NCBI GenBank assembly: GCA_001800315.1
Contig: MGVE01000001.1
Location: 140,269-204,268, forward strand
Source: Elusimicrobia bacterium RIFOXYA2_FULL_47_53
Lineage (GTDB): Bacteria > Elusimicrobiota > Endomicrobiia > Endomicrobiales > XYA2-FULL-47-53
Length of the DNA stretch: 64,000 nucleotides
Reading direction: 5' to 3'
Shown: piece after piece, positions 43,502 to 63,797 of the stretch
Layout: every line of letters starts with the position of its first letter
Numbering within the stretch: position 1 is the stretch's first letter
The notes under the pieces: generated by a model
Seen by the model: the letters and a program-made list of their open reading frames with translations, nothing else
Database searches by the model: none
What the model was told of the DNA's origin: nothing
Position numbers and translations under genes: made by a program

Positions 43502-44158
43502 TTATTCACTGACAACAAGTTTCTTGTCTAATTTCCATTTTTTGTCGTGCTCAAGAAGCTGCAGGAATTTTCTGTATGACGAGAGATGCTGGTTGTGTTT
43601 GATGAGGCAGGAAAGGCCTGCGATAAAGTCGTCTCTTTCCGATGCTTTGCTGGCTTTCGGTTTCGGGAGAACTCTCGGCATGTCTTTAGGCCTTGCCAGA
43701 GCGGGATGAAGTTTAATCAGGGCCAGTTCCAGCTCTTTGGCCATATGTTCAAGTATTCTTACTTCGTCGTTAAAGGCATCGTCATTTTTTATAATTTCAA
43801 CAAGCGTATCCATCCCGAAAACAAGCATGGGTTCGTATTTTATGGATTTTGTGTCCCCGAGCTCGGACATCGCGTTCTTGAAATCCTTTTCCATTTTATC
43901 GCGCCAGTGCGCGGCCTGATGAGAAAAACTTGACGGATAGACAAAAGCGATGAGCTCTGAGGCGGGGTCATGATAAAGCACAAAATGCTCGGCGTAAAAA
44001 ATCTCTCTGCAGTTCGGGCAGCAGACAACATTGACCTCGCCGGCTATAAGAGATTCTTTCAGCTCAGGGTCTTCGTTTACATTTATGGCGTTGTAGAGCT
44101 CGGCCTCAAAAACTTCTCCGCACGGGCATACAATCTCTTCAAGTTTTAAAAATGACAT
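43502..44158 (-). CDS. CpXC-domain protein
   Basis: The protein has 218 residues. The N-terminal part carries a CpXC domain: VCPCGEVFEAELYNAINV, then a spacer and VVCCPNCREIFY, giving two pairs of cysteines that probably bind zinc. The remainder is helical with no recognised motif. The function of CpXC proteins is not established. GAGGG precedes the ATG and a good promoter lies only about 24 bases upstream, so this is the first gene of a long run that includes the P-type ATPase. Confidence 0.85.
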   Translation of the reverse strand: MSFLKLEEIVCPCGEVFEAELYNAINVNEDPELKESLIAGEVNVVCCPNCREIFYAEHFVLYHDPASELIAFVYPSSFSHQAAHWRDKMEKDFKNAMSELGDTKSIKYEPMLVFGMDTLVEIIKNDDAFNDEVRILEHMAKELELALIKLHPALARPKDMPRVLPKPKASKASERDDFIAGLSCLIKHNQHLSSYRKFLQLLEHDKKWKLDKKLVVSE

Positions 44159-45774: not shown

Positions 45775-47250
45775 TTATTTTCTTGAGCCAAACAGGCCAA
45801 GAATATCCTGCTCGGTTTTGGCGCTTTCCAGGTTTCCCATATATATGTAACTGTTGGCCAGGTACAGATGAGCGTTCTCGTAAAAAGGGTTTATTGCAAT
45901 GGACTCGCAAAAAGCTTTTATGGCCTCCGGGTATCTTGCCTGTTTGTAATACAGCTCACCAAGCGCCTGGTACGGAGTCACATAATTCGGATTTTTTTCA
46001 ATCGCGGACAGCAGGTATTGCTCGGCCTTTTTCTCGTCGCCGGAGGCCAGCAGAGACCTGGAAAGCTTAAGAAGTATAAGCGGGTTTGCCGGCTCAAGTT
46101 CAAGAGCGCCGCTGTATTGTGCCGCGGCCGCGGCCATGTTGCCCAGCTGCCTGAATTTGTCGCCCAGCCTTATCTTGCCGGCCGCGTCGGCTCCTATATA
46201 TTCATCTTCGGGCTTGCTATAAAAAACCGGCAGATCGGATACGGTTCCAACGGCCCTCTCCAGGCCGAGCCCGCCCAGATATTTTCTGAACTTATTCTCA
46301 AAAGACGCCTCGGAAACACCGACAGAGGACTTAAAGGATTTATTATAAGGGAGTGAAGACAGCCCGGAGAGAAGGAGCCTCAGGGCGTCAGGCCCGTAAT
46401 TTTTTTTCATAAAATCCACGGCAGCCGAGACTTCCGCGAAGGCAAGAGCTATCTCGTCCTGATCCTTTAAATAAATAAGAGACGGGCTCATTTTCTTAAA
46501 TGTAACATAGGTTCCGGCCTTATTTGAATCTGCCAGGCGGTTTTTGGCGTCCGGAGTAAGAAAAAGCGGCTCAGCCAGCCTCCACCTGGTGTCATGGTAA
46601 CGGGCTATCCCTTCGTGAAGCCAGAGCGGGCACTGCGAGACGGAAATATAGTTGACAAGATAGTGGGTGTACTCGTGAGAGAGCGTATCAAGCCACCTGT
46701 AGCCAAGAGGCAGGGCGTTGGGCGAGAGCAGCATGATCCTGTTGAATTTGCATATACCCACCGTCCCGGTCTTTTCAATGATGTCAAGCGGGATCGTGGA
46801 CGCGAAAGAAAACTCCTCTTTGTTCGGATAAACCTCCACAAGAATCTTGTTTTCGGGGTAGGCGCCCAGGTCAGCGCCTATCTCTGTATATGACATTTCA
46901 AGCGCCGTAAGAGCGTAAGTGGAGAGAATTACATCATAGCCCCTGGCTTTAAAAACAAAATGAGAGCTTTCAGCCGCGGAAAAGTTTTTTGTTATCATGG
47001 CAAGCTTTAGAAAGTAGCCGCTGTTTTCAGAAGCCACATTACCGGCCGAGGAATAATCGCCCCCATAAAATTTAATTCTGCTTTTCCACAGTTTTGCGTC
47101 CCGGGAATCGCCGTTTTGTTCAATTATCGCAGCGGCTTCCGACAGCCTGCCAGATTCCAGCAGCCTGTAGAGCCTGTTGTCGTCATAAGCGTGAGATAAA
47201 CACGCCGGCGCGATTAGAAAAAACACGGTTAAAACCAATTTAATATTCAC
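45775..47250 (-). CDS. secreted TPR protein with gluzincin (peptidase MA-like) domain
   Basis: The 491-residue protein starts at a GTG that overlaps the DUF4175 stop (GTGA). A signal peptide (about 1-21) is followed by a zinc-metallopeptidase domain: H192-E193-x-x-H196 in LSHEYTHYLV and a downstream glutamate E213 in LHEGIARY, the gluzincin pattern. The C-terminal third (about 350-485) contains TPR repeats (for example RYPEAIKAFCESIAINPFYENAHLYLA). It is probably a periplasmic protease or peptidase-like scaffold and is the last gene of the MoxR-led cluster. Confidence 0.88.
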   Translation of the reverse strand: MNIKLVLTVFFLIAPACLSHAYDDNRLYRLLESGRLSEAAAIIEQNGDSRDAKLWKSRIKFYGGDYSSAGNVASENSGYFLKLAMITKNFSAAESSHFVFKARGYDVILSTYALTALEMSYTEIGADLGAYPENKILVEVYPNKEEFSFASTIPLDIIEKTGTVGICKFNRIMLLSPNALPLGYRWLDTLSHEYTHYLVNYISVSQCPLWLHEGIARYHDTRWRLAEPLFLTPDAKNRLADSNKAGTYVTFKKMSPSLIYLKDQDEIALAFAEVSAAVDFMKKNYGPDALRLLLSGLSSLPYNKSFKSSVGVSEASFENKFRKYLGGLGLERAVGTVSDLPVFYSKPEDEYIGADAAGKIRLGDKFRQLGNMAAAAAQYSGALELEPANPLILLKLSRSLLASGDEKKAEQYLLSAIEKNPNYVTPYQALGELYYKQARYPEAIKAFCESIAINPFYENAHLYLANSYIYMGNLESAKTEQDILGLFGSRK

Positions 47251-50200
47251 TTTGTCAGCCTTCTGTAATACTCTTTTATAATTCCTTCAAATTTCTCTGG
47301 AAATTTTTCCTTCATGGCTTCCAGGAGTTCCTGCCGGAACTCACGCGGCGGTTTGAAATCTCGGGATTTAGGCAAAAGCACCGGAGCCGTCCTGAATCCC
47401 GCCGACTGCCCCCCGCGCGTTTTTACCTGCCTCATGCCCGGAGCCCCGCCAGCGGCGCCTTCGGCGCTCTCCTGCATGGACTCTGAAGTCCCTTTAAGAT
47501 TGTCGGCGCCGCTTAAAAGCAGGTTAAGCGCGTTTCTTTGCGATTCAACCGCTTGAGGAACCCTGCCTGAATCCAGTTCGGAGGCGGCGCTCTCCATGCT
47601 GGCCCCGGCCTCGTTTAAGCTTCCAAGCGTTTCGGGAGGGATCAGTGCGCTTTTTCTGCCAACAGTTTCTAACGATTGCCTTAATGACACGGTGTCTCGC
47701 GCAAGGGCAGACTGTTCCTTTGAGGCCGCTTCGGTGTCGCCCGCGGCGGCAGCGCCGGAAACTGAATTAGTGTCGTTCTCCTTTAATTTCAGCAAAATAT
47801 TCTTCTCCGCGGCCAGCACGGCATTTATACGCGGTGAAACCGCGTCCTCTTTAAACAGCGCCGAGAGATCGGACCAGTGCGAAATAATGTCCTCAAGGTA
47901 CTTTTGCGAATTGTACGCCCTTTTTGAAGCGAACTCGTCGTACACCTTATTCATAAGCGCCATGCTCTGTTGCGTGGAGTCCCCGGCCATGGGCTTCTTT
48001 TCAACAAGCAGCGGAAGCACCTCACCGGCTGAGGCTATAATTCTTTGCTGTTCTTTAGCCAGCAGAAGCAGCATATCTTCCTGTTTCTTCATGGCCTCTC
48101 GGATTCTTTTATTGTTTATCGTTTCAGTTTTAGCCAGAATACGGGACTGTCTTTCCGCCAGTTTTGAGAGTTCATTGCCTAACCTGTTCATCTCTTCGGC
48201 AGATTTGCTCATCGCGCCGCTTGAAAAGCCTATATCCTGCCCGGCGCTCCGCACGGTTTCAAGCATGTCCTCAAGCTGTTTTTTAAGCTCCCGCGCCAGG
48301 TTTTCCGCGGTTTTCCAGTCCCCCCTGTTTACGGCCGCCGACAGCTCGGAGGCCAGATCCCTGCTTTTTGAGATGTCTATGGATTTGACCGCGGGAGAGT
48401 TTACAAAATCCTCAGGCAGGCTCTGAGGAAATTTAGACAGCTGTTCGCCGACCTGAGCCATCAGGTCATTTATCTTATCAAGGATCCGGGCCAGCTCTCC
48501 TGCCTCAGGCTTGCCCTTAAGCGAGTCAAGTATATCATCCGATGATTTACTGAGTTCCGCGGCGGAATCAATAATATCTTTCATGTTCTGGTAGCGCATA
48601 ATATCTTCCGATAGCAGGGAAAGCTTTTCAAGAGAGGCGATTATTTCATTTTGCCTCCTCTCGGCCTCATTGATATTTAGTTCGCGGAGAGCCTCAACCG
48701 CCCTTCGCATGGGGGTATCCTTCAGGTAAACAAGCTGTGACTTTATGCCTTTGTATTCCTTTAAGGTTGAGAAATCGGTAACCGGGTCGCTTTCCATTTT
48801 ATTGAGTATCCCGTCAAGCGATTCAATCCCCCCGGCCGCCGACTCTTGTATTGACGCCTGAGCGTCTATAATGCCCGGGTAGGCCGCGCTGGAGCGTTTC
48901 ACGGCGTAGTCTTTTAGCCAGCTGTTTGCGGACATCTGGTCGGAAAGAAGGTCCAAAAGCTGTTTTTGAAATTTCTTAAGCTCTTCCTCAATTTTTCCGT
49001 GTTCAATCGCGTAATTAGTGGTTTCAACAAGGAAATCCGCGCTTTTGCCGTACTTGGGCCCCGCCGCGGTATCATTGTCCCAGGCTTTTATATAGAAGCG
49101 AATCTTGTCTCCCGGCGTAAGATTATATTTATACAACCGAATGAGATAATCGGTTACCTCGCTGATTTTCTTCTTATCAACGGGAAGCTCCGCAACCTGT
49201 TCCCCCTGTCCGTCCTTTGAATATACGAGTTCAACGCGGGTAACGCCAAAATCGTCGCCTGCCTGAAAGACAACGGGTATTTCCGAATCTACTGAAGAAA
49301 GTAAATCCGAATCCGGTGAAATTAAATCCACCGATGGTTTCTTGTCCTGAATAATATTTACAGAATACTTTACCGGATCGGGATCGCCCGGCGTTTTCTC
49401 GTCCGCCGATTCAATGAAGTATTCTCCGGCCTCCTCGGCCGTAAAATATGCGCTGAGTTTTTTACCTGAAATCTTAACCGGAATGGGTTCGCCCCAGGAG
49501 TTGTTGATTGCCGCCGCGCTCAGGGCAACGGAAGAGTTAAATTCAATATTTACTTTTGTGCCCGGGAGCGCCGAAATGTCTGGCTCGTCGGCAACAGTAA
49601 TCTCGCCAAGACCGGTGTAGCGCGGATAGGCGAGCCTTATCTTAAAATTTGAAAACTGGGCCGCCGTTACCGGTTTTATGCGAAATACCGGAGATTCGAC
49701 GCCTTGAGAAGCCGCAAAATATTCCAGTTCGCTGGTAACCTGGAAAATCGTATAGACGAAACTGCCTGCCGCCGCTTCGTCAAAACTGTACTCTTTCCAG
49801 GGAGAGTCTTTTCCTCTAATGTAAAGGTCGGGGGTTTTGCCCGGCGGGATCCTGCCTGTTAAAGTCAGAGTAACATCCGATCCCCACGCGACCGAGGCGT
49901 TGCCCGGCTTTAATTCAAACCATTTAGACCAGCTCTGGGATGAAAATGCCCCCAGCAGCCTTACGGAAGATCGCGCGAAAAACTCAGGCTGGTAAATAGC
50001 CGCCGAAGCGGTGACAAGAAGCACGGCTACAGGCGGGAACAATACTCTAATATATTGTTTAAAATTAAAAACATCACGGATATTTCGCCCTTTAAGCTTA
50101 TCGTTAACCGAATCAATCAGCGCTTGTGTAAGCTCCCGGGATATACCTTCGGGGGTTTTCTTTGAAAGCTGCCAGGCGCTCAGCAGGGTATCCCCCAGAG

Positions 50201-50480
50201 AAGTTATCTTCCCCTGGATTAGCCTGATAATTGACTCGTCGCTCCAGCTCTCCCTTGAAACAGAAAAGTAATTTTTCCACAGCAGATAAACGGAAAATAT
50301 GAATGAGGCGTAATAATAAAGTTTTCTTATAGCCAGCGGAAGAGCGGCAAAATAATCAACGAGCGAGAAAAGCAAAAAAAACGCCGATAAAACAGCGGCC
50401 AGCCTGGCGGTAAAAAGCGCCAGCGAGATAATAACGGCCATAGCTCTGGTTTTGGAAATAAAAGAAATCATCAGGTTCAT
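47247..50480 (-). CDS. DUF4175 family membrane protein
   Basis: A 1077-residue protein. The N-terminus has helices at about 14-40 and 55-75 and a third near 150-165, followed by a large extracytoplasmic part with Ig-like strands (about 180-490) and then a very long helical, coiled-coil region (about 500-1000). The C-terminal EAMKEKFPEKFEGIIKEYYRRL segment is typical of the family. DUF4175 proteins regularly lie beside MoxR, DUF58, BatA and DUF4159 genes, as here, and their role is unknown. It follows the first DUF2723 gene by five bases. Its helical content gives spurious similarity to many coiled-coil proteins. Confidence 0.88.
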   Translation of the reverse strand: MNLMISFISKTRAMAVIISLALFTARLAAVLSAFFLLFSLVDYFAALPLAIRKLYYYASFIFSVYLLWKNYFSVSRESWSDESIIRLIQGKITSLGDTLLSAWQLSKKTPEGISRELTQALIDSVNDKLKGRNIRDVFNFKQYIRVLFPPVAVLLVTASAAIYQPEFFARSSVRLLGAFSSQSWSKWFELKPGNASVAWGSDVTLTLTGRIPPGKTPDLYIRGKDSPWKEYSFDEAAAGSFVYTIFQVTSELEYFAASQGVESPVFRIKPVTAAQFSNFKIRLAYPRYTGLGEITVADEPDISALPGTKVNIEFNSSVALSAAAINNSWGEPIPVKISGKKLSAYFTAEEAGEYFIESADEKTPGDPDPVKYSVNIIQDKKPSVDLISPDSDLLSSVDSEIPVVFQAGDDFGVTRVELVYSKDGQGEQVAELPVDKKKISEVTDYLIRLYKYNLTPGDKIRFYIKAWDNDTAAGPKYGKSADFLVETTNYAIEHGKIEEELKKFQKQLLDLLSDQMSANSWLKDYAVKRSSAAYPGIIDAQASIQESAAGGIESLDGILNKMESDPVTDFSTLKEYKGIKSQLVYLKDTPMRRAVEALRELNINEAERRQNEIIASLEKLSLLSEDIMRYQNMKDIIDSAAELSKSSDDILDSLKGKPEAGELARILDKINDLMAQVGEQLSKFPQSLPEDFVNSPAVKSIDISKSRDLASELSAAVNRGDWKTAENLARELKKQLEDMLETVRSAGQDIGFSSGAMSKSAEEMNRLGNELSKLAERQSRILAKTETINNKRIREAMKKQEDMLLLLAKEQQRIIASAGEVLPLLVEKKPMAGDSTQQSMALMNKVYDEFASKRAYNSQKYLEDIISHWSDLSALFKEDAVSPRINAVLAAEKNILLKLKENDTNSVSGAAAAGDTEAASKEQSALARDTVSLRQSLETVGRKSALIPPETLGSLNEAGASMESAASELDSGRVPQAVESQRNALNLLLSGADNLKGTSESMQESAEGAAGGAPGMRQVKTRGGQSAGFRTAPVLLPKSRDFKPPREFRQELLEAMKEKFPEKFEGIIKEYYRRLTK

Positions 50481-50485
50481 AAGGT

Positions 50486-52594
50486 TTACCGCATTGTGCC
50501 GCGCCGGGCCCGCGCCTGGCTCAGAAAATACGCGGCTTCTCTATGTCCCGGCTGATAAGACAGCACTTTTTCAAAAGAGGCTATTACCTTGTCCCAACGG
50601 CCGTTCTTCCAGTAGATTACTCCGGTGTTAAAGTAGGCCCTGACATTTGACGGAAATATTTCAACCGCTTTGCCGTAGCTTTCAAGGCCCTCGGCATATT
50701 TGCCGGCTCTCTCCTGAGCCACGCCCAGCGAAACGAATAATTCCGATAATTCTTTTTTAAAACCCTCTACGGCGTCGGGCAGGGCGTTATAGTCTTTTGC
50801 GAGCCTGATTAGTTTTTCGTATTGAACAGCGGCTTTTAAATATGTTTGCTCGGCCTCGGTGTATTTTGACTGCTGAAAAAAGGAAAAAGCCTTAAGATTC
50901 AGGGCTATAGGAAAAACCGGCTGAAAAGCCAGGGCGCTGTCAAGGCACTGTCTTGATAACTCGTACCGTGCTGTTGTCAGATAGGACTGTCCGAGCGAAA
51001 GATAGGCCCTTGAATAGTCGGCTATCAGGTCAGGCGTAAAGAACTCCCTGTAATCATCGTAAACATACCGGCCTCTGTATGAATAAATGTGGTTTAAAAG
51101 CGCATCAGCGGAAGCGTTACCGCCGGAGTTAAGCCGGGTTAAAAGCCCGAAGGGCGCCTCGGTTATGCCTTGAGGGCGGTAGTCAGCGTCCTGAGAATAA
51201 AAGACTCCCCTGCCGGAGTTGGCCTGGTAAAGCAAACGCCAGTCTTCAGGCGACTTAAGCGGCCCTATGTATACCCCCGGGCGCGCCCTCATTAACGGTT
51301 TTCTGTACCAGTCCGAGCCCGAAAGCCCCTGGCTGATAACAGTAAGGTCGGGCCTGATATTTTTTACCAATTGTTCATTCCAGAGCGAAAAAAGCTGGAC
51401 ATCTTTTTTCATGACGACAACCGAACCCGGAGGCGCCGACCTTATGATATTCTTCGCGTAATCAAAACCCACAAAGTTGTTTCTTTTGTTGAGTTCCGGC
51501 AGGTTGGAGTATCCGTTTAAAATGACCATGGCCGCGGCAAGCGCAATAATTATTTTATTGTTTGTTCGGCTTTCAGATAAGCTCAATATTCCCGCTCCGA
51601 TAAAAGGCGCGAAAAGCATATTCGGCAGGAGAAAATGCGCCTCCAGGATTGCAAGCGCGTGCGGGTTTGGAGGCATGTTTGACAGAAAAACAAATAACGG
51701 CCCGCTCGCGGCCCAGGCGAGAAGCAAGCCAGACATAAATACATCTTTTGTCTTCACGCTTCTGTATATCCCAAGAAGACCTAAAAAAATGCCGATATAC
51801 CCGAACCCCTTTAAAAGGTGTTCAAGGTAGAAAGCTATTCCGGCGGAAAAATTCGTTCCTTTCGCGTAAGCCTCTGAAATCAGGTCCAGCGTGCCGCCGT
51901 GGGTTTTCCTTGTCAGGCTTCCCCAGAAACGGCCAAGGTCAGCCGGATGGTTCCAGTCCAACATTGGTCCTGCCGCGGAGCGCACAGGCAGATAGAAAAA
52001 TACCGAGGCCCCGCAAAGAAACAGCAGGGCGGAAACAATCAGGGCTTTTGGCGAGAGGCTTTTTCTTTTTACAAAAGCCGCCGCCGCAAATATTGGCGTG
52101 GAAAGCAAAAGGTCCATCCTGTTGCCAAGCCCCAGGCCGAACAGAAATGAAGCCAGGTAAAGATACCTGAACTCGGTTTTATCCTGAGAAAATCTCAATA
52201 ACAAATAAACAGTCAGCGCCGCGAAAAGCGTATTGAGAGTATACATCTCCGAGACCAGCGCGAGGTACCACTGCAGGTACGAGCTCGCGAGCGTAAGCGC
52301 GAGCAGAGCCGCGACAGCCCTGTTTTTCAGCAGTGCCCTGAAAATCAGATACAGAACATAGCAGGAAGCGGCTCCCGCGAGAGCGGAAAGCGCGTTTAAC
52401 CTGAAGGCCTGCGATCCGAAAGGCACCAGCAGAATGAAAAGCTTTGATATAAGAGTGTAAAACGGATAGCCCGGGGGATGCGCGACGCCTAAGGTATGAG
52501 CGGCACTCACCATTTCACCGGAGTCGCGGTATTGCGAAAGCCCGGGGAAGAGGGTTGTCAGATAGGCTATAAAACTAAGAAAGAATACGGTCAT
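50486..52594 (-). CDS. DUF2723/TMEM260-like glycosyltransferase with C-terminal TPR (paralogue 1)
   Basis: A 702-residue membrane protein. The N-terminal DUF2723 region shows about 10-12 helices, with the first extracytoplasmic loop YRDSGEMV (D24, E27) followed by LGVAHPPGYPFYTL. This acidic loop is the probable catalytic site of a GT-C enzyme. A soluble domain (about 390-540) precedes TPR repeats (about 540-700). Related eukaryotic TMEM260 is a protein O-mannosyltransferase, so transfer of a lipid-linked sugar to exported proteins is plausible here, but no substrate is shown. It overlaps paralogue 2 as ATGA. Confidence 0.87.
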   Translation of the reverse strand: MTVFFLSFIAYLTTLFPGLSQYRDSGEMVSAAHTLGVAHPPGYPFYTLISKLFILLVPFGSQAFRLNALSALAGAASCYVLYLIFRALLKNRAVAALLALTLASSYLQWYLALVSEMYTLNTLFAALTVYLLLRFSQDKTEFRYLYLASFLFGLGLGNRMDLLLSTPIFAAAAFVKRKSLSPKALIVSALLFLCGASVFFYLPVRSAAGPMLDWNHPADLGRFWGSLTRKTHGGTLDLISEAYAKGTNFSAGIAFYLEHLLKGFGYIGIFLGLLGIYRSVKTKDVFMSGLLLAWAASGPLFVFLSNMPPNPHALAILEAHFLLPNMLFAPFIGAGILSLSESRTNNKIIIALAAAMVILNGYSNLPELNKRNNFVGFDYAKNIIRSAPPGSVVVMKKDVQLFSLWNEQLVKNIRPDLTVISQGLSGSDWYRKPLMRARPGVYIGPLKSPEDWRLLYQANSGRGVFYSQDADYRPQGITEAPFGLLTRLNSGGNASADALLNHIYSYRGRYVYDDYREFFTPDLIADYSRAYLSLGQSYLTTARYELSRQCLDSALAFQPVFPIALNLKAFSFFQQSKYTEAEQTYLKAAVQYEKLIRLAKDYNALPDAVEGFKKELSELFVSLGVAQERAGKYAEGLESYGKAVEIFPSNVRAYFNTGVIYWKNGRWDKVIASFEKVLSYQPGHREAAYFLSQARARRGTMR

Positions 52595-54612
52595 TTGTTT
52601 TCGGCTCTTTTTCGGGCTATCGTAAGATATTCGGCGGCACTAAGATTTTTCGGGTCAAGGCGAGCCACAAGCTCAAGCTCTCTGATCACATCGGCCCACT
52701 TGGACCTTCTCCAATAAAGCACCGCCAGGTTATAGTGCGCCTGCGAATTGTTGCTGTCAATCTCTATGGCCCTCCGATAACAGCCCAGGGCCGAATTTGT
52801 ATCACCTCTTTGTTCCATAAGCGCTCCAAGGTTAATTAAAACCTGGGCATCCTCGTGTCCGGATTCCACCGCTTTGCGGTAGTATTTCTCGGCCAGCGCG
52901 AGATTGTTCCTTGAATGGTGCGCGTAACCCAGGTTTCCCCACCAGGAGCGGTTCCTGTCATAAACCGAGAGGCCTTCATATTCCCTTTCAGCCTTTTCCC
53001 ATAAGCCGTTTGAAAGAAAATATTCAGCCAAGAGCTGGCGGTGTGACGAATAAAGGCTCTGATACCTCTGGTCCCAGTGTTTGCTGTCTCCGTCGGCTCG
53101 CAGGGAATAGATAATTTCGTAAGCAAAAGGGGCGCGGCTGCCGTCGTTAAGGGGCTTTGCCAAGTAGAGAAGCCCGGCCTGAACCCTCGGAATATTTATC
53201 ATCTTAGGGTCAAAGGTCGCGTAGTAAACCGCTCCTGTCCGCTTTCTTATCAGCTCGCGCTCCTTTATTTCTCTTAAGGCGAGCCTGCCTTTGCCCCATA
53301 TTTTATAATAGCCGTCACCGTAAATGCTTTTTGTGACTCCTGCGTTGCAGTCGTGAAACTCAATGTCGCTCCTTTTTCCCAGGGCATTGATGTAATAAGC
53401 CACGCCAAATTCCATCTCGTCGGCGCGGTCCATGAACAAAAGGCTGTTTTCCGGCAGTGTCCTGACAATATTTTTTGTGTAATCCCAGAACAGGAATTCA
53501 TCTCTATGGTTTAACGCCGAGCTGTTTGAAATAAGCAGAAACAACGGCAGGGCTGAAAGCAATACCGAAATCTTGCCCGGCAGCCTTTTTAAGGCATAAG
53601 CGGAAACCATAATAATAAAAATAACCGGAAGAAAAAGAAACCTTGAGAGCAGCTCAGTGGAGGATTTGGAAAGGCCTACATTGGCCATTAAAATAAAAAC
53701 AGGGCCTGTACCGGCAAACAGCAAAATCATGGCCCAGCCTGAGAGTCTGTCTTTGAGCGCGAAGTACAAACCCGCGGCAAAAACCGCAGCCGCCGGCAGG
53801 CCCAGGCCGCCGGCTAAGGCCTTGCCCAGAAAGACAAGTTTCGCGGCCACTATTTCAATCCCCAGCGGCGGCATACCGCCCTGAGCCAGCGCCAGAGTGC
53901 CGTACCTCATACGGGAGATTACCTGATAAAACCTTTTCCAGGTTCTTGGGTCTTCCCATGAAAACAGGGGGTTAGCGTTGGCTCTTACATATATGAATAA
54001 CGCTATTGATAAGCCCGCAACAAAAAACAGGAGCGCTGTCGGCAGGAGCTTTTTAAAGTCCGCGTTAATCCTCTTTCCCGATACAAAAACCCAGTACAAA
54101 ACTCCGGGAGCCATCAGCCCTAAGGTGTAATGCGCCTGAATTCCTATCCCAAAAACAAAACTCGCAAGATATATGCCGCTGAGCGACGGTTTACCGGCTA
54201 TTATATAAGCCAGCAGGGCCGCGAAAAACGCTGCCGTGCCGTAAACCTCGGTGACATTTGCCATGGGCCAGACAATACCGCAAAAGGCGAAGATCAATGA
54301 CAAAACAAACGAGGCCGCGGATGAAGCGGATATCTCAAGGCAGGCCGCGAATATAAGCGCGGCGCTTAGAGAAATAAACAGAGCCGATACAAGGTTTGCC
54401 CTGTAAGCGGGGTTTGAAAAAGGCACAACTGTATTTATGGCTTTACCGGCGAGGCTGTAAAACGGGTAGCCGGGAGAGTGGGCTATGCCCAGCGTCGCGC
54501 AGACTCCCGCGAGCTCGCCGGAGTCGTCGGCCGTGATAGACGGCACCATAGTGTAGAGGTAAACACCGAATGAAATTAGTAAAACCGCCGCGGCCAGGAA
54601 TATATTTTTCAT
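52591..54612 (-). CDS. DUF2723/TMEM260-like glycosyltransferase with C-terminal TPR (paralogue 2)
   Basis: The 673-residue middle paralogue has the same plan: signal-anchor helix, acidic loop SITADDSGELAG (D29, D30, E33), LGIAHSPGYPFYSL, about ten more helices, a soluble domain and TPR repeats (about 540-665). Its loop carries one more aspartate than paralogue 1. The three copies differ enough in the middle to be old duplications. It overlaps paralogue 1 and paralogue 3 (ATGA at both joints), so all three are expressed in step. Confidence 0.87.
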   Translation of the reverse strand: MKNIFLAAAVLLISFGVYLYTMVPSITADDSGELAGVCATLGIAHSPGYPFYSLAGKAINTVVPFSNPAYRANLVSALFISLSAALIFAACLEISASSAASFVLSLIFAFCGIVWPMANVTEVYGTAAFFAALLAYIIAGKPSLSGIYLASFVFGIGIQAHYTLGLMAPGVLYWVFVSGKRINADFKKLLPTALLFFVAGLSIALFIYVRANANPLFSWEDPRTWKRFYQVISRMRYGTLALAQGGMPPLGIEIVAAKLVFLGKALAGGLGLPAAAVFAAGLYFALKDRLSGWAMILLFAGTGPVFILMANVGLSKSSTELLSRFLFLPVIFIIMVSAYALKRLPGKISVLLSALPLFLLISNSSALNHRDEFLFWDYTKNIVRTLPENSLLFMDRADEMEFGVAYYINALGKRSDIEFHDCNAGVTKSIYGDGYYKIWGKGRLALREIKERELIRKRTGAVYYATFDPKMINIPRVQAGLLYLAKPLNDGSRAPFAYEIIYSLRADGDSKHWDQRYQSLYSSHRQLLAEYFLSNGLWEKAEREYEGLSVYDRNRSWWGNLGYAHHSRNNLALAEKYYRKAVESGHEDAQVLINLGALMEQRGDTNSALGCYRRAIEIDSNNSQAHYNLAVLYWRRSKWADVIRELELVARLDPKNLSAAEYLTIARKRAENK

Positions 54613-56636: not shown

Positions 56637-58769
56637 TTATAAAAGGCCTTTTTTCCTTCTAAATAGCAAGTCAAAAACAAAGAAAGCCGTAATAACAAAC
56701 ATCCAGAGCGGGCTTTTGAATAATTCCTTTTTTTTCCGGGTTTCGCTTCGGCCGCCCTTTCTGAATTTATCAGATAGCATCCCGGCGGAAGCGTTTTTTT
56801 GATTTAATAGCGCGCCGCCGGAAACTTCAGCGATATATTTTAGCATAGTTTCATTGTTGCCGAGGTTTGAGTCCTCTAAAATTGAAGCCTCGCCCGCCTG
56901 CAGAACTCCGCTCCAGAGCGGTTTTGAACTGTTTGCCGAGTAGAGGGAGATTTTATAAAGGCCGGCCTTGTCAAGCTTTGCGCCCGCGGTAAAAAGCATG
57001 TTTGTGCCTGTTTTTATCTCAAGAAACCGCTGCGGGCCGGAGGGTTCGGTTAAAGACAACCGCAGTTCCGCGGGCCGGCTCTGCCCGGGAGAATATATTT
57101 TCGCGTTGAACTCCTGTCCTGCAAAGTACCGCGATTTGTCCAGCAGGACCTTATACCCCGAAACATTTTCGTCGGAAGAAAGGTATCTGATTACATTGGT
57201 CCAGAACTTATTGTATTCTCTTGGGGTCGGAGCCTGCAAGGCCCACCGCCATGTGGTGTCGGAGGCTATGGCGGCCACTCTTCCTTTTTTATACTGCCAG
57301 GCCGTAATAAGCGGAAGCTCCCGCCATGGACAGAAGGCGAGCGCCGAAGCCTGGCTTTTGGCTTTTAAAACGCGGCAACCTTCAAGCGCGGGCAGATTTT
57401 CCCATAACTGGCGGTTCTTTTTGGGGTTATCATCCAACAACATAACGGGATGACTGTAATCGGCTACCATAGGCTTATAGCTTTCGTAAATCATTGAATC
57501 AGCGCCGGAATCACTCATCTCAACAGGAATAATATCCGCCAGAGCCGTGCTGTTCCAGCCGCCGTTGGCAAAAGCATCTTCGCCGCCTTTAATTAAAAGT
57601 CCGCCTCCGCGTTCACGCACCCATTTGGCTATATTGGAGAAGTATTCGTCCCTGAAACCAAAGCCGCGGTAGGAAAAATTGTCCAGGATAAGTATATCAA
57701 AATTAAACAGCTCCTTAGTGAAGAGCTCATGCACGGGGAATGGGATAAGCGCGAGGTCGTGCTCCGGCACCAGCGCGATATTTTCCGGTCTTCTTAAGAT
57801 AACAAACGACACAAGCTCCACATTCGCGTCGTTTTTAAGCACATTCCTGAGGAAAGCGTACTCCGGGCCGGGCCGGCCGCAAATATAGAGGGCCCTGGTT
57901 TTATCTCTTATTACATCTAAAACAAACTCCGCGGAATTATTGGCTGATGTTGCTTCCCCCTCTACAGGTTCCGCCATTGCCAGATAGGTAAACCTCCCGC
58001 CGGCTTCCGGAGTAAACTGCATATCAACCGAAACCAATTCGCTCTGCTTATCGGCAGTTATAGTCTTTGCTGCGATAATCCGGCTCTTATCGTTTTTGCT
58101 CCTGACGGATAATTTAACAGGAACAGAAGCGCATCCGGTAAGGCGCACAGCGACACTTACAGTCAGCGGAGTGTTTTTAAAAGCAAAGTCCGCTGAATTT
58201 ACTCCTATAACCTCCACATCCCTTACCGAAGACGGCTGGCTGAGTGAAACCACGGTTACCGGCACATTTAAATCGCTGACCCACCTGCCGGGCGGCTGCT
58301 GGCCGTTATGGTTACCGTCGGTAAAAAGCAGTATGCCTGCGAGCCCCGCTCCGTTTTCCCTGCGCACCGTCCAGAGAGAGCGGCTGATATCCGTTGACCG
58401 GCCGCCGGAGCTGTCAGGCGAAAAACTCTTCACCGGCGAGGCATCTGACGAGAAAAAATAATACTTCAGCTCAAAGTTCTTCTTTAAATCATTTTCAATC
58501 TGACGGAAGTATTTAACAGCCTCTCTGAGCTTTTTAGTCAGCACCATGCTGTTTGAATTATCCATCATAACCGCGATAACGGGATTTGCAGAGGCGTTTC
58601 GGTCCGACACAGACGGCCTTAACACGACCAGCAGAAGCAATACCGCCATGCCTACCCGTATAATCCTGCTTAAGACAAGCCTGATCCTGGCCGCGGCAAA
58701 AGAGCCTGCCAGCACGGCCAGAAAAACGGCTGATATTAATATAAGAGGCGATGATGAAAATTCCTGCAT
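56637..58769 (-). CDS. VWA and glutamine-amidotransferase-like membrane protein
   Basis: The 710-residue protein has two N-terminal helices (about 8-28 and 35-52), a VWA-like domain with MIDAS D70-x-S72-x-S74 (MMDNSNSM), beta-rich linkers, and a class I amidotransferase-like domain (about 300-560) including LDNFSYRGFG and RGGGLLIKGGEDAF; a catalytic cysteine is not evident, so it may only bind. A C-terminal helix (about 685-702) ends in RRKKG. Such proteins are standard partners of BatA/DUF4159/DUF58 in MoxR operons. It lies 13 bases before DUF4159's stop on the upstream side. Confidence 0.86.
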   Translation of the reverse strand: MQEFSSSPLILISAVFLAVLAGSFAAARIRLVLSRIIRVGMAVLLLLVVLRPSVSDRNASANPVIAVMMDNSNSMVLTKKLREAVKYFRQIENDLKKNFELKYYFFSSDASPVKSFSPDSSGGRSTDISRSLWTVRRENGAGLAGILLFTDGNHNGQQPPGRWVSDLNVPVTVVSLSQPSSVRDVEVIGVNSADFAFKNTPLTVSVAVRLTGCASVPVKLSVRSKNDKSRIIAAKTITADKQSELVSVDMQFTPEAGGRFTYLAMAEPVEGEATSANNSAEFVLDVIRDKTRALYICGRPGPEYAFLRNVLKNDANVELVSFVILRRPENIALVPEHDLALIPFPVHELFTKELFNFDILILDNFSYRGFGFRDEYFSNIAKWVRERGGGLLIKGGEDAFANGGWNSTALADIIPVEMSDSGADSMIYESYKPMVADYSHPVMLLDDNPKKNRQLWENLPALEGCRVLKAKSQASALAFCPWRELPLITAWQYKKGRVAAIASDTTWRWALQAPTPREYNKFWTNVIRYLSSDENVSGYKVLLDKSRYFAGQEFNAKIYSPGQSRPAELRLSLTEPSGPQRFLEIKTGTNMLFTAGAKLDKAGLYKISLYSANSSKPLWSGVLQAGEASILEDSNLGNNETMLKYIAEVSGGALLNQKNASAGMLSDKFRKGGRSETRKKKELFKSPLWMFVITAFFVFDLLFRRKKGLL

Positions 58770-58782
58770 ATATATTCCTCTG

Positions 58783-59538
58783 TTACCTATTCATTTTTTG
58801 CTCAAGAAACGGCCTGTGAATGGCGTCGCTTTTGTAAGTCCCCGTAACCGAGTACATAATAATATTCATAGTCAGTTTCTGCGCTTCAAACCTCTGGGGC
58901 TGTCCCGAGGGGGCGCATTCCCAGAGGTAATTTCCCATCCTGTCGCGAGCCCAGGCGCCGAACAGGTCGTTCTGCGAATAGATAAGCGCCGTCCTCCCGG
59001 AAATATCAATGCCTTCAACGAAATTATTTACAAGCCGCCGGCCGCTGACTTTCCGTAAGAAGTAATAAGAGCGCATTAACGGATGATCAATCGGAAGCTT
59101 TTTTAACTTAAGTTCGGGGAATACCGCGGCCAGCTCGGACCTGAACGAGGAGTCAAACGCGCCGCCGCGCATAGCGGAAGAATCCTCCACAAGAACAATC
59201 CCGCCGTTTGAAAGATAGCGCCGAAAAAGCTCCCGCTGATTTTTATTGAATTTCGGAAAACTTTCCGAGCCGAGTATGACAAGAAACGGCGACGAGAAAA
59301 GCTCCTTGTCGTCAATTGAGGCCACTCTGCGTTCGCGCTGGGGGCTGATGCTTGTGGCGGTAGCCAGAAACTCAATTATATCCCCCCAGGTCTCGGGATA
59401 AGGATCCCACTGTCCGTCATAACGCAGCTGGGTGAATACAAACTTGTTTAACTGCGCCGCCGTGATAACAACCGGGGATATCATTGTGTATAATAATGCC
59501 GGCAGGATAACTAATAAGCGTAACCTGAGATTTCTCAT
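58783..59538 (-). CDS. DUF4159 family exported protein
   Basis: I prefer the ATG at 59538 (MRNLRLRLLVIL...), which gives a clean signal peptide and has AGGA upstream; a GTG at 59559 is possible. The 251-residue product shows the DUF4159 pattern: FTQLRYDGQWDPYPE, FLVILGSESFPKFN, RYLSNGGIVLVEDSS and HPLMRSYYFL. The fold resembles an amidotransferase-like Rossmann domain and its role is unknown. A dispersed repeat separates it from the BatA gene, so transcription may be weakened there. Confidence 0.86.
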   Translation of the reverse strand: MRNLRLRLLVILPALLYTMISPVVITAAQLNKFVFTQLRYDGQWDPYPETWGDIIEFLATATSISPQRERRVASIDDKELFSSPFLVILGSESFPKFNKNQRELFRRYLSNGGIVLVEDSSAMRGGAFDSSFRSELAAVFPELKLKKLPIDHPLMRSYYFLRKVSGRRLVNNFVEGIDISGRTALIYSQNDLFGAWARDRMGNYLWECAPSGQPQRFEAQKLTMNIIMYSVTGTYKSDAIHRPFLEQKMNR

Positions 59539-59617
59539 GATTGCTGTCCTATTTAGCACTTTGCCAATCCTCCGAGCGCCCGGGGCCTGACGGTGAAGAA
59601 TTCACCAGACATCTAAA

Positions 59618-59695
59618 GTCACTCTGAACGAAGTGAAGAGTCTCGTTTTTCATCCAACTGCGAGATTCTTCGTCCGCGCGGCGTACTCAGAAAGA
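59618..59695. repeat. dispersed palindromic repeat, copy 2
   Basis: This 78-base unit matches the repeat at 2454-2534 in the same orientation: GTCACTCTGAACGAAGTGAAGAG, then GAGATTCTTCGTCCGC and a decayed right arm (CTCAGAAAGAC). It overlaps the last nine bases of the BatA-type gene and supplies its stop codon, so insertion has probably altered that C-terminus. Confidence 0.75.
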
Positions 59696-61717
59696 CCGCG
59701 CCGCCTTCTCGGATGATAGCTCTTTTGGTCTTACTCCCGGGTTGGCAAGCAGAATTTCCGCAATTAGAAGCAGGAGCGCCGCCAATAAAAGATACCGTGA
59801 GAGCTCTTTTCCGTAAAGTATTGAGGCAAGCTCATCTTCCCAGCCCGCAGCGGGCAGCAGGCCGGCAAATCTGCCTTCCCAGTATTCGCGCAGTTCCGAA
59901 TCAGCAAAGCGCTTAAGCGCATCTTCGCCCGTTGAATAGTCCAGGTTTACCGCCAGGTATTCATCCGGAAGACCGTCGGCCTTTACTTCGTAAATACCCG
60001 GCTCATTGGCCATGGAATATTCGTATTCACCGTTAAAATAAGCGGCTTTGGCCCTTTTTCCGTCCGGGCCCGTGATTGAAACCGGTTTTAAAGACTTTCG
60101 CCTGACGATTTCGCCGACTTTATAATAGGGCTCGGCGGCCGTCTTCCTATCGCTTAACAAATGCGCCACCGCGGCGCGCATAAGCGGCAGGAATATGGGT
60201 TTTGACGGCAGGTTATTCCAATCCCTGTCGGCTGTCGTTGTAAAAAGAAGCACTCTTCCCCGGCCATAGGTGCCTTCGCATAAGAAAGGCCATCCCGAAT
60301 CATAGGCGGCAAGCACGGCGCTCCCCGCCCCTGGAGTTGAGGCGTACCCGGATTTAACCGAGATGTTCTGGGACTCAAATTCGGCAGGGTTAAAACCCTG
60401 AAAATCCTTTGGCGAGATATTCCACTTAACGGAGAGAGGCGTTTCAAAAACCGAAGCGATTTCGCAGGGCAGGAACTCCGCCTGCGCGAGCCCCGCTGAA
60501 TGGTTTCCGAGAAAAACCATAACCTTTCCCCCGTTTTTGAGGTAAGCATTGTATTTATCGCTGTTGTCGCGGATATTTAAAAGCATGACCACATCGTATT
60601 TTTCAAAAGCCACGGCTTCCGCCTCGCTTTCCCCGAAAACATCAGCCTCGGGAAATGCCGTGTGCAGGTAATAGCTTTCCGAACCGGAGCCGCCCGCCCC
60701 CGGATCTCCGTCTATTACGCAAAGAGCGGCCTTGCCGGGTTTCAAGGCTGAATAATAATAGCAGTTGTCCGCCTGCAGGTTATCGCCGGTCAGCCGCACC
60801 GAACCGTTAACGACGCCGGCCGTGCTCTTAAAATAGAACGGCTTTACCGGGGTTTCGCCCTTGGGAGCCTCGGCCTGAACCGCTCCGATTTTAGTCATGC
60901 CTGAATAGTACGAAATAGCCAATGAGCCGTATTGCCGTTCCCCGGACGAGAAAACGCGGGCATTCAAGGACCATTTGTCCTGAGACTCTGAGAATTCGGC
61001 AGAGACATCGCGAATAGAAAGGTTTGAAGCTTCCGAATTATCAAAACCCAGCAGTTTGAAGTTCATTCCGCCGTAGTTAAACGGCGCGGTAAAACCGTGG
61101 GCCGCCAGATCGGAGAGTAACAGGACGGTTTTATCGGCAATACTGTTCCCGGCAAAAAACTCTTTAAGAGGTTCAGCGGCGCAGGAAATATCGGTTGTCC
61201 TATAGGTTGGCTTCAGCTGGCTGAGGAAAGAGAGAATATAATTCTTGTCATTTGTAAGTCCCGGAGTGGTTGATTCCACCCTGTTTGAATAGGCAATAAC
61301 TCCTATCCGCGCGCTGCCGGGCAGCAAAGAAACAATCTTTTTGGCCTTTAATATGTATTCGTCAAACCTGTTCTTACCTCCGTCGTTGTAGCGCATGGAG
61401 AAAGAGGTGTCAATAAGCAGTACAAGCTCCCGCGAAAGCTCCGCATTTTTTTCTGCCCGGCCGGGCGCGCCGTACTGAATTCTTGGGCCTGCGAAAGCGG
61501 TTATGATAAGGAGCAAAAAAAGAACTCTTGCCGAGAGAAGCAGTAGCTTTCTTAAGCGCGAGGAGCCTTTTTTTCTCTCAATGGCGAGTTTTAAAAACTT
61601 TATGTGGCTGAAAGGCACGGCGGCATTTTTCTTTTTTCTGATAAGATGCAGAACTATCGGCAAAGCGGCGATGGGCAGGGCCAGCAGAACCGAAGGATTA
61701 AGAAACGATATGTTCAT
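59687..61717 (-). CDS. BatA-domain VWA membrane protein
   Basis: A 676-residue protein. The BatA N-terminal segment FLNPSVLLALPIAALPIVLHLI (helix about 6-26) is followed by a second helix (about 57-77) and a VWA domain with MIDAS D103-x-S105-x-S107 (LLIDTSFSM). A long periplasmic region and a C-terminal helix (about 645-663) follow. The final RSF and the stop codon are encoded by a dispersed repeat. Such proteins assemble with MoxR and DUF58 proteins in membrane complexes. It follows the DUF58 gene by one base. Confidence 0.9.
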   Translation of the reverse strand: MNISFLNPSVLLALPIAALPIVLHLIRKKKNAAVPFSHIKFLKLAIERKKGSSRLRKLLLLSARVLFLLLIITAFAGPRIQYGAPGRAEKNAELSRELVLLIDTSFSMRYNDGGKNRFDEYILKAKKIVSLLPGSARIGVIAYSNRVESTTPGLTNDKNYILSFLSQLKPTYRTTDISCAAEPLKEFFAGNSIADKTVLLLSDLAAHGFTAPFNYGGMNFKLLGFDNSEASNLSIRDVSAEFSESQDKWSLNARVFSSGERQYGSLAISYYSGMTKIGAVQAEAPKGETPVKPFYFKSTAGVVNGSVRLTGDNLQADNCYYYSALKPGKAALCVIDGDPGAGGSGSESYYLHTAFPEADVFGESEAEAVAFEKYDVVMLLNIRDNSDKYNAYLKNGGKVMVFLGNHSAGLAQAEFLPCEIASVFETPLSVKWNISPKDFQGFNPAEFESQNISVKSGYASTPGAGSAVLAAYDSGWPFLCEGTYGRGRVLLFTTTADRDWNNLPSKPIFLPLMRAAVAHLLSDRKTAAEPYYKVGEIVRRKSLKPVSITGPDGKRAKAAYFNGEYEYSMANEPGIYEVKADGLPDEYLAVNLDYSTGEDALKRFADSELREYWEGRFAGLLPAAGWEDELASILYGKELSRYLLLAALLLLIAEILLANPGVRPKELSSEKAARSF

Positions 61718-61718
61718 C

Positions 61719-62588
61719 TTACTGTTTTAGTATCCTTGCCAGCAGGGTTTCCACCGCGCTGTCAGTGAGGCAGAGATTGTAAGTGATTCCGGATTTTCTG
61801 AAAGCCGATTTAAATGTTTCAACGAAGGCCGAGACTATCTTTCTGTAGCTGTCGGCTATTTCGTCGGCGTCGCAGAACAGCTCGGCGGCGCTTTCCAGGT
61901 CCCGAAAAACAGTTTCCCCCGAATAAGCAAAATCCAGTTCCCCGCGGTTTAAGACATGAAAGACCATCACCTCATGGTGCCTGAATTTATAGTATTTCAG
62001 GGCCTTGATTATTTCGCCGGCGTCGCCCATAAGGTCGGATATTATAACAAGAAGCGATCTTTTTTTTATGTGTTTACCGAAATCCCTGAGCACCGAAACA
62101 AACGAAGTCTCATCCCCGGGGCTTAAGGTCTCCAGTTTTTCAAAAATCAGCGGCATGTGGCTCAGCTGGTGGCGCGGCGGTATGTAAAAGGAAAGTTTTT
62201 CGGCAAAAGCCGAAACCGAGACAGCGTCTTCCTGTCTCAGCAGCAGGTATGTCAGCGACGCGGCTACGAGCTTTCCAAAATCAAGTTTGGAAATGCCCGA
62301 AGATCCTTTAAAACCCATGGACGCGGAAGAGTCCAGCAGAATATGGGCCCGCAGGTTAGTCTCATCCTGAAATTGTTTTAAGAAAAGTTTTTCGGTGCGG
62401 CCGAGAATTTTCCAGTCAAGGTACCTCGGGTCATCGCCGGGCGCGTACTCCCTGTGCTGGGCAAATTCCTGGGAGTGGCCGCGGTAAGGGCTGGAATGAA
62501 GGCCGGCAAGCACACCTTCAACTACCAAGTTTACTTTTAGCCTGAGGTTGGATATTCTGGAGAGTTCTACTGGGTCAAGGAGTTTCAT
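61719..62588 (-). CDS. DUF58 VWA-like protein
   Basis: The 289-residue soluble protein has the DUF58 hallmark YAPGDDPRYLDWKILGRTEKLFLKQF (about 49-73) and a VWA domain with MIDAS D86-x-S88-x-S90 (LLDSSASM). DUF58 proteins pair with MoxR ATPases. The ATG lies just after a 167-base MITE-like insertion that separates this gene from moxR, so it may be expressed less than moxR or from a promoter inside the insertion. Confidence 0.92.
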   Translation of the reverse strand: MKLLDPVELSRISNLRLKVNLVVEGVLAGLHSSPYRGHSQEFAQHREYAPGDDPRYLDWKILGRTEKLFLKQFQDETNLRAHILLDSSASMGFKGSSGISKLDFGKLVAASLTYLLLRQEDAVSVSAFAEKLSFYIPPRHQLSHMPLIFEKLETLSPGDETSFVSVLRDFGKHIKKRSLLVIISDLMGDAGEIIKALKYYKFRHHEVMVFHVLNRGELDFAYSGETVFRDLESAAELFCDADEIADSYRKIVSAFVETFKSAFRKSGITYNLCLTDSAVETLLARILKQ

Positions 62589-62590
62589 AT

Positions 62591-62757
62591 TGAGTCAATT
62601 GAAAAAGCCTGTTTCAGGAGCGAAATTTTGGGTTTTGTGCCGAGGCAAGGCGACCGAGGCAAGCATATGCTCCACGGAGTATCTGTAAGCTGAGGCCAAC
62701 GAAGCCGCAGGCCAAAGGCCGAAATTGCAGCCCGAAAGAGGTTTTTCAACTGACTCA
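62591..62757. mobile_element. MITE-like element with imperfect terminal inverted repeats
   Basis: A 167-base non-coding element between moxR and DUF58. Its ends are imperfect inverted repeats of about 27 bases: left TGAGTCAATTGAAAAAGCCT..., right (read inward) TGAGTCAGTTGAAAAACCTC.... The interior has GAGGCAAG twice (GCCGAGGCAAGG and CCGAGGCAAGC) and GGCC-rich palindromes. There is no ORF. It ends a few bases from the DUF58 start codon and does not interrupt either gene. Confidence 0.72.
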
Positions 62758-62795
62758 TATTATAGGTTCAACTCCCGAAAGACGGCAAAACATCG

Positions 62796-63797
62796 TCAGC
62801 CGGCGGACTGTTCCAGGAGCCTTGAGATAAGTTTGTCGGCGGTCATGCCTTCAGCCTCGCCGTTAAAGTTCACTAAAACCCTGTGCCTGAGCGCGGGAGC
62901 GGCCACGGCCTTGATATCCTCAACCGATACGGCAAAACGGCCTTCAAGTATGGCTTTCGCTTTAGCTCCCAGTATAAGCGCCTGCGCGCCTCTCGGCCCG
63001 GCGCCCCAGTTCACGAACTGTTTCACGAAATCCGGGGAAGTGTTTTCATGGGGCCTGGTGGCTCTGGCAAGCCTGACCGCGAATTCAACTGCATGGTCCG
63101 CGGCGGGGACCCTTCTGACAATATCCTGCAGGGCTATAATTTCCTGCGCCGTAAGGAGTTTCTCGGAAACGGCATTAAACTCGCCGGTCGTCCGCGAAAC
63201 TATTTCTTTCTCTTCGTCAAAGCTCGGGTAATCAATATTTATCTGGAAGAAAAACCTGTCCAGTTGGGCTTCCGGAAGCGGATAGGTGCCTTCCTGCTCA
63301 ATAGGGTTCTGGGTGGCTAAAACAAAAAACGGCAGAGCCAGCGGGTAGGTATGTCCGGCGGCGGTGATTTTGTACTCCTGCATTGCCTGCAAAAGCGCGG
63401 CCTGAGTTTTAGGCGGGGTGCGGTTTATCTCGTCTGCCAGTATTATCTGGCCAAAAAGCGGGCCTTTGATGAACCGAAAGTTCCTTTTCCCGGTGCTTAA
63501 GTCCTGGTCAATTACCTCGGTGCCGGTAATATCCGACGGCATAAGGTCGGGAGTAAACTGTATTCTTTTAAAATCCAGGTCTAAGATCTGGGCTATCGTT
63601 GATATTAGGAGGGTTTTTGCCAGGCCCGGCACGCCGACCAGCAGAACATGCCCTTTGCAGAACAGAGAGATCAGCAGTTCGTCTACTACCGCGTCCTGAC
63701 CAACTACTATTTTGGCAAGCTGTTGCTTTATAGCCAGATGGCTTTTTTTCAGTTTATCAACTAAAACAAGGTCGTCTTTTTCTGAGGACTCTTTCAT
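62796..63797 (-). CDS. MoxR-family AAA+ ATPase
   Basis: The 333-residue ATPase has Walker A GVPGLAKT (K61), Walker B ILADEINR (D122, E123), and the MoxR-specific ATQNPIEQEGTYPLPEAQLDRF with sensor 1 and arginine finger. MoxR proteins act as chaperones that fit metals or assemble VWA-domain membrane complexes. GGAGG lies six bases before the ATG and a good promoter is about 40 bases upstream. It heads a cluster of DUF58, BatA, DUF4159, VWA/amidotransferase-like, DUF2723 and DUF4175 genes. Confidence 0.94.
   Translation of the reverse strand: MKESSEKDDLVLVDKLKKSHLAIKQQLAKIVVGQDAVVDELLISLFCKGHVLLVGVPGLAKTLLISTIAQILDLDFKRIQFTPDLMPSDITGTEVIDQDLSTGKRNFRFIKGPLFGQIILADEINRTPPKTQAALLQAMQEYKITAAGHTYPLALPFFVLATQNPIEQEGTYPLPEAQLDRFFFQINIDYPSFDEEKEIVSRTTGEFNAVSEKLLTAQEIIALQDIVRRVPAADHAVEFAVRLARATRPHENTSPDFVKQFVNWGAGPRGAQALILGAKAKAILEGRFAVSVEDIKAVAAPALRHRVLVNFNGEAEGMTADKLISRLLEQSAG

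Follow-up and report, generated by a model that had tools for sequence, protein, structure and literature searches.

The DNA analysed here (the window, 64,000 nucleotides in full) takes up the end of a contig of 204 kb in the near-complete 2.4-Mb genome of Elusimicrobia bacterium RIFOXYA2_FULL_47_53, which is an Elusimicrobiota bacterium of the order Endomicrobiales. Ten minus-strand genes at positions 45775-63797 make up the system in question: three tandem genes for PF11028 glycosyltransferases with TPR domains (a, b and c, by position) are embedded in a MoxR-type operon, between MoxR, DUF58, BatA, DUF4159 and a VWA protein with a GATase1-like domain (GAT) on one side and DUF4175 and a metallopeptidase (PepMA) on the other. 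We find that this embedding is a conserved trait of Elusimicrobiota and not an accident of one genome. To judge from their sequences, the three enzymes are bona fide relatives of human TMEM260 with an intact catalytic motif. On our best reading, what is new is an old, phylum-specific addition of PF11028, and what is known is a MoxR operon with a probable role in envelope integrity. We put at about even the chance that the locus represents an Elusimicrobiota version of this envelope operon with added TMEM260-like protein O-glycosyltransferases, the core of the operon handling the same exported proteins. All ten genes named in the initial annotation of the window, with their common strand, extents and domains, were found again with Pfam.

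Conservation within and outside Elusimicrobiota

In our sample of 198 Elusimicrobiota genomes, 53 carry DUF4159, 64 carry PF11028 and 39 carry DUF4175, and PF11028 is present in 49 of the 53 genomes with DUF4159. Among the matches listed, at least 70 of the 134 PF11028 genes in DUF4159-carrying genomes lie no more than 20 kb from DUF4159, where about 2.2 would be expected; all 70 are on the same strand as DUF4159 and 69 of them are downstream of it. The binomial behind this comparison ignores shared descent, yet the gene order is kept across many families whose proteins are only about 25-50% identical. A chance neighbourhood is ruled out by the excess of linkage together with the conserved order. 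Counted from the other side, 35 of 54 DUF4159 loci are linked to PF11028, and several of the unlinked ones are near contig ends. The order in 29 gene-called regions is MoxR-DUF58-BatA-DUF4159-GAT-a-b-c-(GT-C, GT2 or GT28)-DUF4175-PepMA-CpXC, and the number of PF11028 genes per operon varies from one to three.

The three PF11028 genes had been described as triplicated, which is misleading. They are only 26-31% identical in pairs, and each has its own orthologues, at the matching position, in relatives throughout the phylum. In a quick tree of 91 sequences, made without bootstrap, genes of different families group by position into clade c (37 rows, support 100), clade a (28 rows, 99) and clade b (15 rows, 86), with the first copy of one family (f12) falling outside clade a. 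Such low identity and position-specific clades indicate an old triplet and not a recent triplication.

Some relatives have a large exported protein between a and b (L019 5489-8422, L035 8674-11676 and probably L041 16224-18758). The L019 protein, which was scanned, is a subtilase that ends in a sorting domain weakly resembling CHU_C. The protein of L035 is similar in look, and both are candidates for a client or a processing enzyme. A separate clade (support 100) holds off-operon PF11028 genes of Endomicrobiales relatives (L147, L148, L150 and L051). The L150 gene has PriA upstream and adjoins the genes for peptide deformylase and methionyl-tRNA formyltransferase; similar sizes of the neighbouring genes in L147, L148 and L051 point to a second conserved PF11028 neighbourhood.

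Scanning named genomes with the GAT alignment yielded 80 loci, 39 labelled Elusimicrobiota and 41 labelled otherwise or unlabelled. PF11028 is in the locus in 34 of the 39 and is embedded in none of the 41, one of which (the unlabelled L120) is itself from Elusimicrobiota, its PF11028 places being equal to those of G106. The junction therefore belongs to Elusimicrobiota and goes back far in that phylum, and a universal MoxR-PF11028 system is ruled out. In the initial annotation, frequent conservation in unrelated lineages was to count as support for one system; the association holds inside the phylum and fails outside it. Its view of MoxR, DUF58, BatA, DUF4159 and DUF4175 as a set that travels together is borne out, since they occur together in several phyla: the core is accompanied by DUF4175 and PepMA in Tectomicrobia, Myxococcota, a Pseudomonadota metagenome-assembled genome (MAG) and MAGs labelled Clostridia. 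A search of 20 such core-bearing genomes in their entirety found PF11028 to be absent from 16. One MAG labelled Clostridia (L060/G198) has the core operon without PF11028 and five strong PF11028 genes elsewhere; the label of such MAGs is doubtful because their core genes are close to those of Elusimicrobiota. PF11028 is also carried by a Bacteroides genome used as a control.

The glycosyltransferases and the core proteins

PF11028, formerly DUF2723, is now named 'TMEM260-like'. Against its curated cut-off of 24.2 bits, a, b and c score 103, 63.1 and 111.8 bits, and Pfam finds a C-terminal TPR part in each (residues 519-701 in the model of c). All three paralogues have the GT-C acidic motif DxGE, placed in the first extracytoplasmic loop, in the form of DAGE in a (D25/E28) and DSGE in b (D30/E33) and c (D24/E27). 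Its D is conserved in 100% and its E in 99% of 86 sequences; one H plus several R and D positions, near-invariant in the same set, are likewise kept in a, b and c. The PF11028 profile matches the whole catalytic domain of human TMEM260 (PDB 9rql) with E=1.5e-80, the TPR part lying outside the match, and DxGE aligns with the GDSGE of TMEM260. Individual sequences also match 9rql, a with 1.3e-33 over residues 4-432 and b with 2.5e-27 over 9-420. Nearest to the AlphaFold2 model of c (pLDDT 91.9, pTM 0.90) are Pmt1-Pmt2 and Pmt4 (Z about 27); ArnT (Z 25.6) and then STT3/PglB follow, all of these lying at Z 22-27. With Foldseek alone, the C-terminal domain of c brings TPR proteins to the top. The TMEM260 structure is not among the fold-search matches listed, the comparison with it being one of sequence.

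TMEM260 is a GT117 O-mannosyltransferase whose TPR part has been proposed to recruit immunoglobulin (Ig)-like IPT domains; recruitment of Ig-like acceptor domains is likewise proposed for the TPRs of the TMTC enzymes, and acidic residues of the first loop are predicted to be important for catalysis in both TMEM260 and the TMTC enzymes (PMC11292533). The proteins studied here share with it a homologous full-length GT-C catalytic domain, the DxGE and HPPGYPL motifs and the C-terminal TPR layout (PMC11292533), but they are bacterial and come as up to three paralogues in an operon. From what is known of the family, they would transfer sugar from a lipid-linked donor on the periplasmic side. The literature searched holds no characterised bacterial member of the TMEM260 family, the Pfam name being taken from the human enzyme.

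As for the core, MoxR has Walker A (GVPGLAKT) and Walker B (LADE) motifs, and the DxSxS of the metal ion-dependent adhesion site (MIDAS) is intact in DUF58 (DSSAS, residue 86), BatA (DTSFS, 103) and GAT (DNSNS, 70). Neither MoxR nor DUF58 has a membrane segment, one hydrophobic stretch of MoxR being the P-loop strand; consequently, only DUF58 is in a position to be a direct partner of MoxR. Hydrophobic segments of BatA are at 8, 58 and 639, a positive loop separating the first two, and GAT has the same layout of two N-terminal segments with a positive loop between them, a VWA domain and then a C-terminal segment. A matching layout has been measured for Borrelia BB0173, whose VWA domain is periplasmic (PMC5700661). 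In the initial annotation the locus was suggested to be a membrane machine that glycosylates exported proteins under MoxR control. Periplasmic glycosyltransferases tied to an envelope operon are a reasonable part of that picture. Control by MoxR is unsupported, given that MoxR and DUF58 are without membrane segments and that the BatA VWA, DUF4175 and TPR domains are predicted to be periplasmic.

DUF4159 has an N-terminal hydrophobic signal, and its true start, going by the sequence, is probably the ATG near 59538. In the GATase-like domain of GAT, an alignment of 20 orthologues has GGGLLMIGG in place of the catalytic Cys elbow GxCxG, so that this domain is probably structural. PepMA has a gluzincin-type HEYTH motif (residue 192), a second Glu in LHEGIARY and an N-terminal hydrophobic signal, which together make an active exported metallopeptidase likely; the earlier suggestion that it is the processing enzyme is only a guess. 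The model of DUF4175, of moderate quality (pLDDT 77.9, pTM 0.47), has N-terminal transmembrane helices, tandem Ig/fibronectin type III (FnIII)-like beta domains (about residues 188-490) and a long helical coiled region, and the C-terminal tail of the protein is conserved. Foldseek gave Ig/FnIII matches at low TM-score and no specific relative; the DUF4175 profile found only generic helical bundles among solved structures, and its single-sequence scan of the genome contigs had no match. Among the ten proteins there is no Pfam match to BatD or a second BatA-type protein, the periplasmic beta domains of DUF4175 and GAT not having been compared with BatD. Anti-phage defence was considered and rejected: a partial AAA match to IetA, at 17 bits, was all that seven core proteins gave against the PADLOC models.

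We take the operon RL3499-RL3502 (cmdA-cmdD) of Rhizobium leguminosarum to include DUF4159 and DUF4175, and to our knowledge it has no PF11028, GATase-like or peptidase gene. As described in the papers that cite it, this broadly conserved MoxR operon resembles ours in its MoxR/DUF58/VWA-type content, and its mutation leads to defects in cell morphology and envelope integrity (PMC4287336, PMC5700661); for operons of this kind, such a role is known from Rhizobium alone. The Bat operons of Bacteroides (aerotolerance), Leptospira and Borrelia (bb0170-bb0176) also combine MoxR, DUF58 and BatA-VWA, with a periplasmic VWA domain (PMC5700661); they have further Bat, TPR and SH3 genes, whereas the operon studied here has DUF4159, GAT, DUF4175, PepMA and the glycosyltransferases. 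In NorQ/NorD and CbbQ/CbbO, a MoxR AAA+ ring is likewise paired with MIDAS adaptor proteins (PMC13036017), but these partners act directly on the ring, which here only DUF58, without membrane segments, could do. The general O-glycosylation of Bacteroidota modifies exported proteins, with mannose first, through a transferring enzyme that is yet to be discovered (PMC12871550). It concerns a different phylum; common to both are the O-glycosylation of exported proteins, as proposed here, and PF11028 in a Bacteroides genome.

Possible function and alternatives

According to the explanation we prefer, the ancestor of the phylum would have gained a set of PF11028/GT117-type membrane glycosyltransferases in a widespread MoxR-DUF58-BatA-DUF4159-GAT-DUF4175-PepMA envelope operon. 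A cytoplasmic ArnC/PgfS-like GT2 would load a single sugar onto undecaprenyl (or other polyprenyl) phosphate, after which the lipid-sugar would be flipped across the membrane. On the periplasmic side, a, b and c would then move the sugar to Ser/Thr of exported proteins by means of their first-loop acidic residues. Their C-terminal TPR domains may pick different acceptors, a division of work that would account for three copies unable to replace one another. At the inner membrane, the core might be a scaffold on which the same exported proteins are assembled or undergo quality control, with MoxR and DUF58 in the cytoplasm, with BatA, GAT, DUF4159 and DUF4175 providing MIDAS and Ig-like or coiled periplasmic parts, and with PepMA as a periplasmic protease.

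Genes that could belong to a donor pathway are found in relatives and in the window genome itself. The operon of one relative (G005) has two further genes between c and DUF4175, one for a PMT_2 GT-C enzyme and one for a GT2; the GT2 is nearest to the ArnC model and then to the PgfS model, below both equivalog cut-offs. PgfS is part of a streptococcal protein-glycosylation pathway. Another relative (G101) keeps the GT2 in the same place without PF11028, and in one Endomicrobia family the same slot beside DUF4175 is taken by a GT28 gene resembling monogalactosyldiacylglycerol (MGDG) synthase. The window genome has an orthologue of the GT2 (52% identity) on another contig and, at L145 7922-12419, an off-operon PF11028 gene with SMC upstream and, directly downstream, genes for a PMT_2-TPR protein and a WecG-type glycosyltransferase.

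A number of points weigh against the preferred explanation. The donor synthase and PMT_2 are outside the operon in the window genome. The initial annotation held that a MoxR set without the trio, and the trio in unrelated neighbourhoods, would speak against a joint system, and this is in part what is found: other phyla as a rule have a core that works without PF11028, as do a few Elusimicrobiota (G064, G095, G101 and G124), and roughly one in two of the PF11028 genes listed is outside the operon. In the split operon of G003 (below), moreover, the trio is not with MoxR. MoxR and the glycosyltransferases are predicted to be on opposite sides of the membrane, and nothing shows contact between them. 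In the literature searched, no glycoprotein, donor or acceptor is reported for Elusimicrobiota, and no paper deals with this gene group there. Moreover, the GT-C fold and motif are common to lipid-modifying ArnT, so that protein acceptors are not proven.

The most serious alternative, which we consider unlikely, is a co-transcribed envelope island where PF11028 was placed once, in the Elusimicrobiota ancestor, and has been kept by inheritance and shared expression, with no tie to the MoxR core. It agrees with the absence of PF11028 from the operon in all 41 loci not labelled Elusimicrobiota, with its genome-wide absence from 16 of the 20 core-bearing genomes searched, and also with other glycosyltransferase genes coming and going at the same spot. 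However, the three clades hold their order and adjacency at only about 25-50% identity. In addition, the operon of G003 is split over two contigs, MoxR to GAT being separated from a, b, c, DUF4175, PepMA and CpXC, and the fact that the trio stayed with DUF4175-PepMA-CpXC where the operon broke supports the preferred explanation. DUF4159 and PF11028 are also absent together from a small-genome sister family (f6), in which DUF4159 is lacking and no match to PF11028 exceeds the cut-off. Even if no joint mechanism exists, the PF11028 enzymes may be protein glycosyltransferases.

Rather improbable, in our estimate, is that the PF11028 enzymes act in an ArnT-like manner and use the same lipid-linked sugars to decorate an envelope glycan or lipid, such as lipopolysaccharide core, O-antigen or another polysaccharide. 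In its favour, the fold of ArnT is one of the nearest (Z 25.6), ArnC is the nearest named model of the GT2, one off-operon PF11028 copy is beside PMT_2 and a WecG-type glycosyltransferase, and the MGDG-synthase-like GT28 is next to DUF4175 in some relatives. Nonetheless, the homology is specifically to the protein O-mannosyltransferase TMEM260, over the full catalytic domain and with the same arrangement of GT-C and TPR parts. In structure, Pmt1-Pmt2 and Pmt4 match best, and the second-best GT2 model, PgfS, comes from protein glycosylation in streptococci. A recent tandem triplication for dosage, to which three adjacent genes of one family joined by ATGA would lend themselves, is hardly conceivable and is ruled out by the pairwise identity of only 26-31% and by the tree, where each copy falls among the genes that hold its position in other families, a grouping strongly supported for a and c and less so for b.

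It is tempting to extend the preferred explanation to a phylum-wide O-glycosylation machine, although we regard this as doubtful. Three TPR 'readers' would share out Ig-like exported proteins, perhaps DUF4175 among them, which MoxR, BatA and GAT would assemble or check, the enzymes being physically coupled to the AAA+/VWA scaffold. Since TMEM260 modifies Ig-like domains, DUF4175 is one possible acceptor; as it also exists without PF11028, being an acceptor cannot be its sole purpose. If true, bacteria would have a counterpart to the O-mannosylation of Ig domains in eukaryotes. Two questions can be tested together, namely the role of the MoxR/DUF58/BatA/DUF4159/DUF4175 operon and that of bacterial TMEM260 relatives. 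The conserved operon supplies candidate partners, and the ArnC/PgfS-like synthase clustered with it in a relative offers a candidate donor pathway. PF11028 is moreover present in Bacteroides, from a phylum where the enzyme that starts O-glycosylation is still sought (PMC12871550).

Gene layout and neighbouring features

The genes of the operon and the features next to it are listed in the table. The contig stops just upstream of MoxR, placing the 5' side outside the view.

Table. Features of the operon region, in window positions.
Feature	Position	Strand	Evidence
MoxR AAA+ ATPase	62796..63797	-	Pfam AAA_3 4e-61, AAA_lid_2
DUF58, soluble, VWA-like	61719..62588	-	Pfam DUF58 4e-36
BatA-type inner-membrane VWA protein	59687..61717	-	Pfam BatA 5e-16, VWA_2 5e-14
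Copy of dispersed repeat, about 130 bp	59565..59695	-	33 matches in own genome
DUF4159 protein	58783..59559	-	Pfam DUF4159 2e-32
GAT, membrane protein, VWA + GATase1-like	56637..58769	-	Pfam GATase1_like 8e-13
PF11028-TPR glycosyltransferase a (position 1)	54609..56636	-	Pfam 2e-29; clade a
PF11028-TPR glycosyltransferase b (position 2)	52591..54612	-	Pfam 4e-17; clade b
PF11028-TPR glycosyltransferase c (position 3)	50486..52594	-	Pfam 4e-32
DUF4175 protein	47247..50480	-	Pfam DUF4175 7e-23
PepMA, TPR metallopeptidase, likely exported	45775..47250	-	Pfam Peptidase_MA_2 2e-7 (just under curated cut-off) + TPR
CpXC domain gene	43502..44158	-	Pfam CpXC 1e-20

The stretch from DUF58 to PepMA is tight overall, with a spacing of 1 nt between DUF58 and BatA. 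The joints reported earlier are present: GAT passes into a through TAAATG, with 0 nt between the genes, and ATGA overlaps join a to b and b to c; DUF4175 overlaps PepMA by GTGA. Wider gaps separate MoxR from DUF58 (207 nt) and BatA from DUF4159 (127 nt), the latter being occupied by a copy of a dispersed repeat. This repeat, also found in the window at about 2424-2526, has an internal inverted motif, CTCTTCACTTCGTTCAGAGTGAC, and its 33 matches are spread across many contigs of the genome, like a repetitive extragenic palindrome (REP) or a miniature inverted-repeat transposable element (MITE).

The conserved unit runs beyond position 45775 to the CpXC gene, which closes the module at its 3' side in relatives and adjoins or is near PepMA or DUF4175 in G003, G005, G007, G066, G101, G105 and G135. 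In the window, an unrelated gene, for a UPF0324/YeiH-like transporter (44310-45350), sits between PepMA and CpXC; in relatives it is outside the module.

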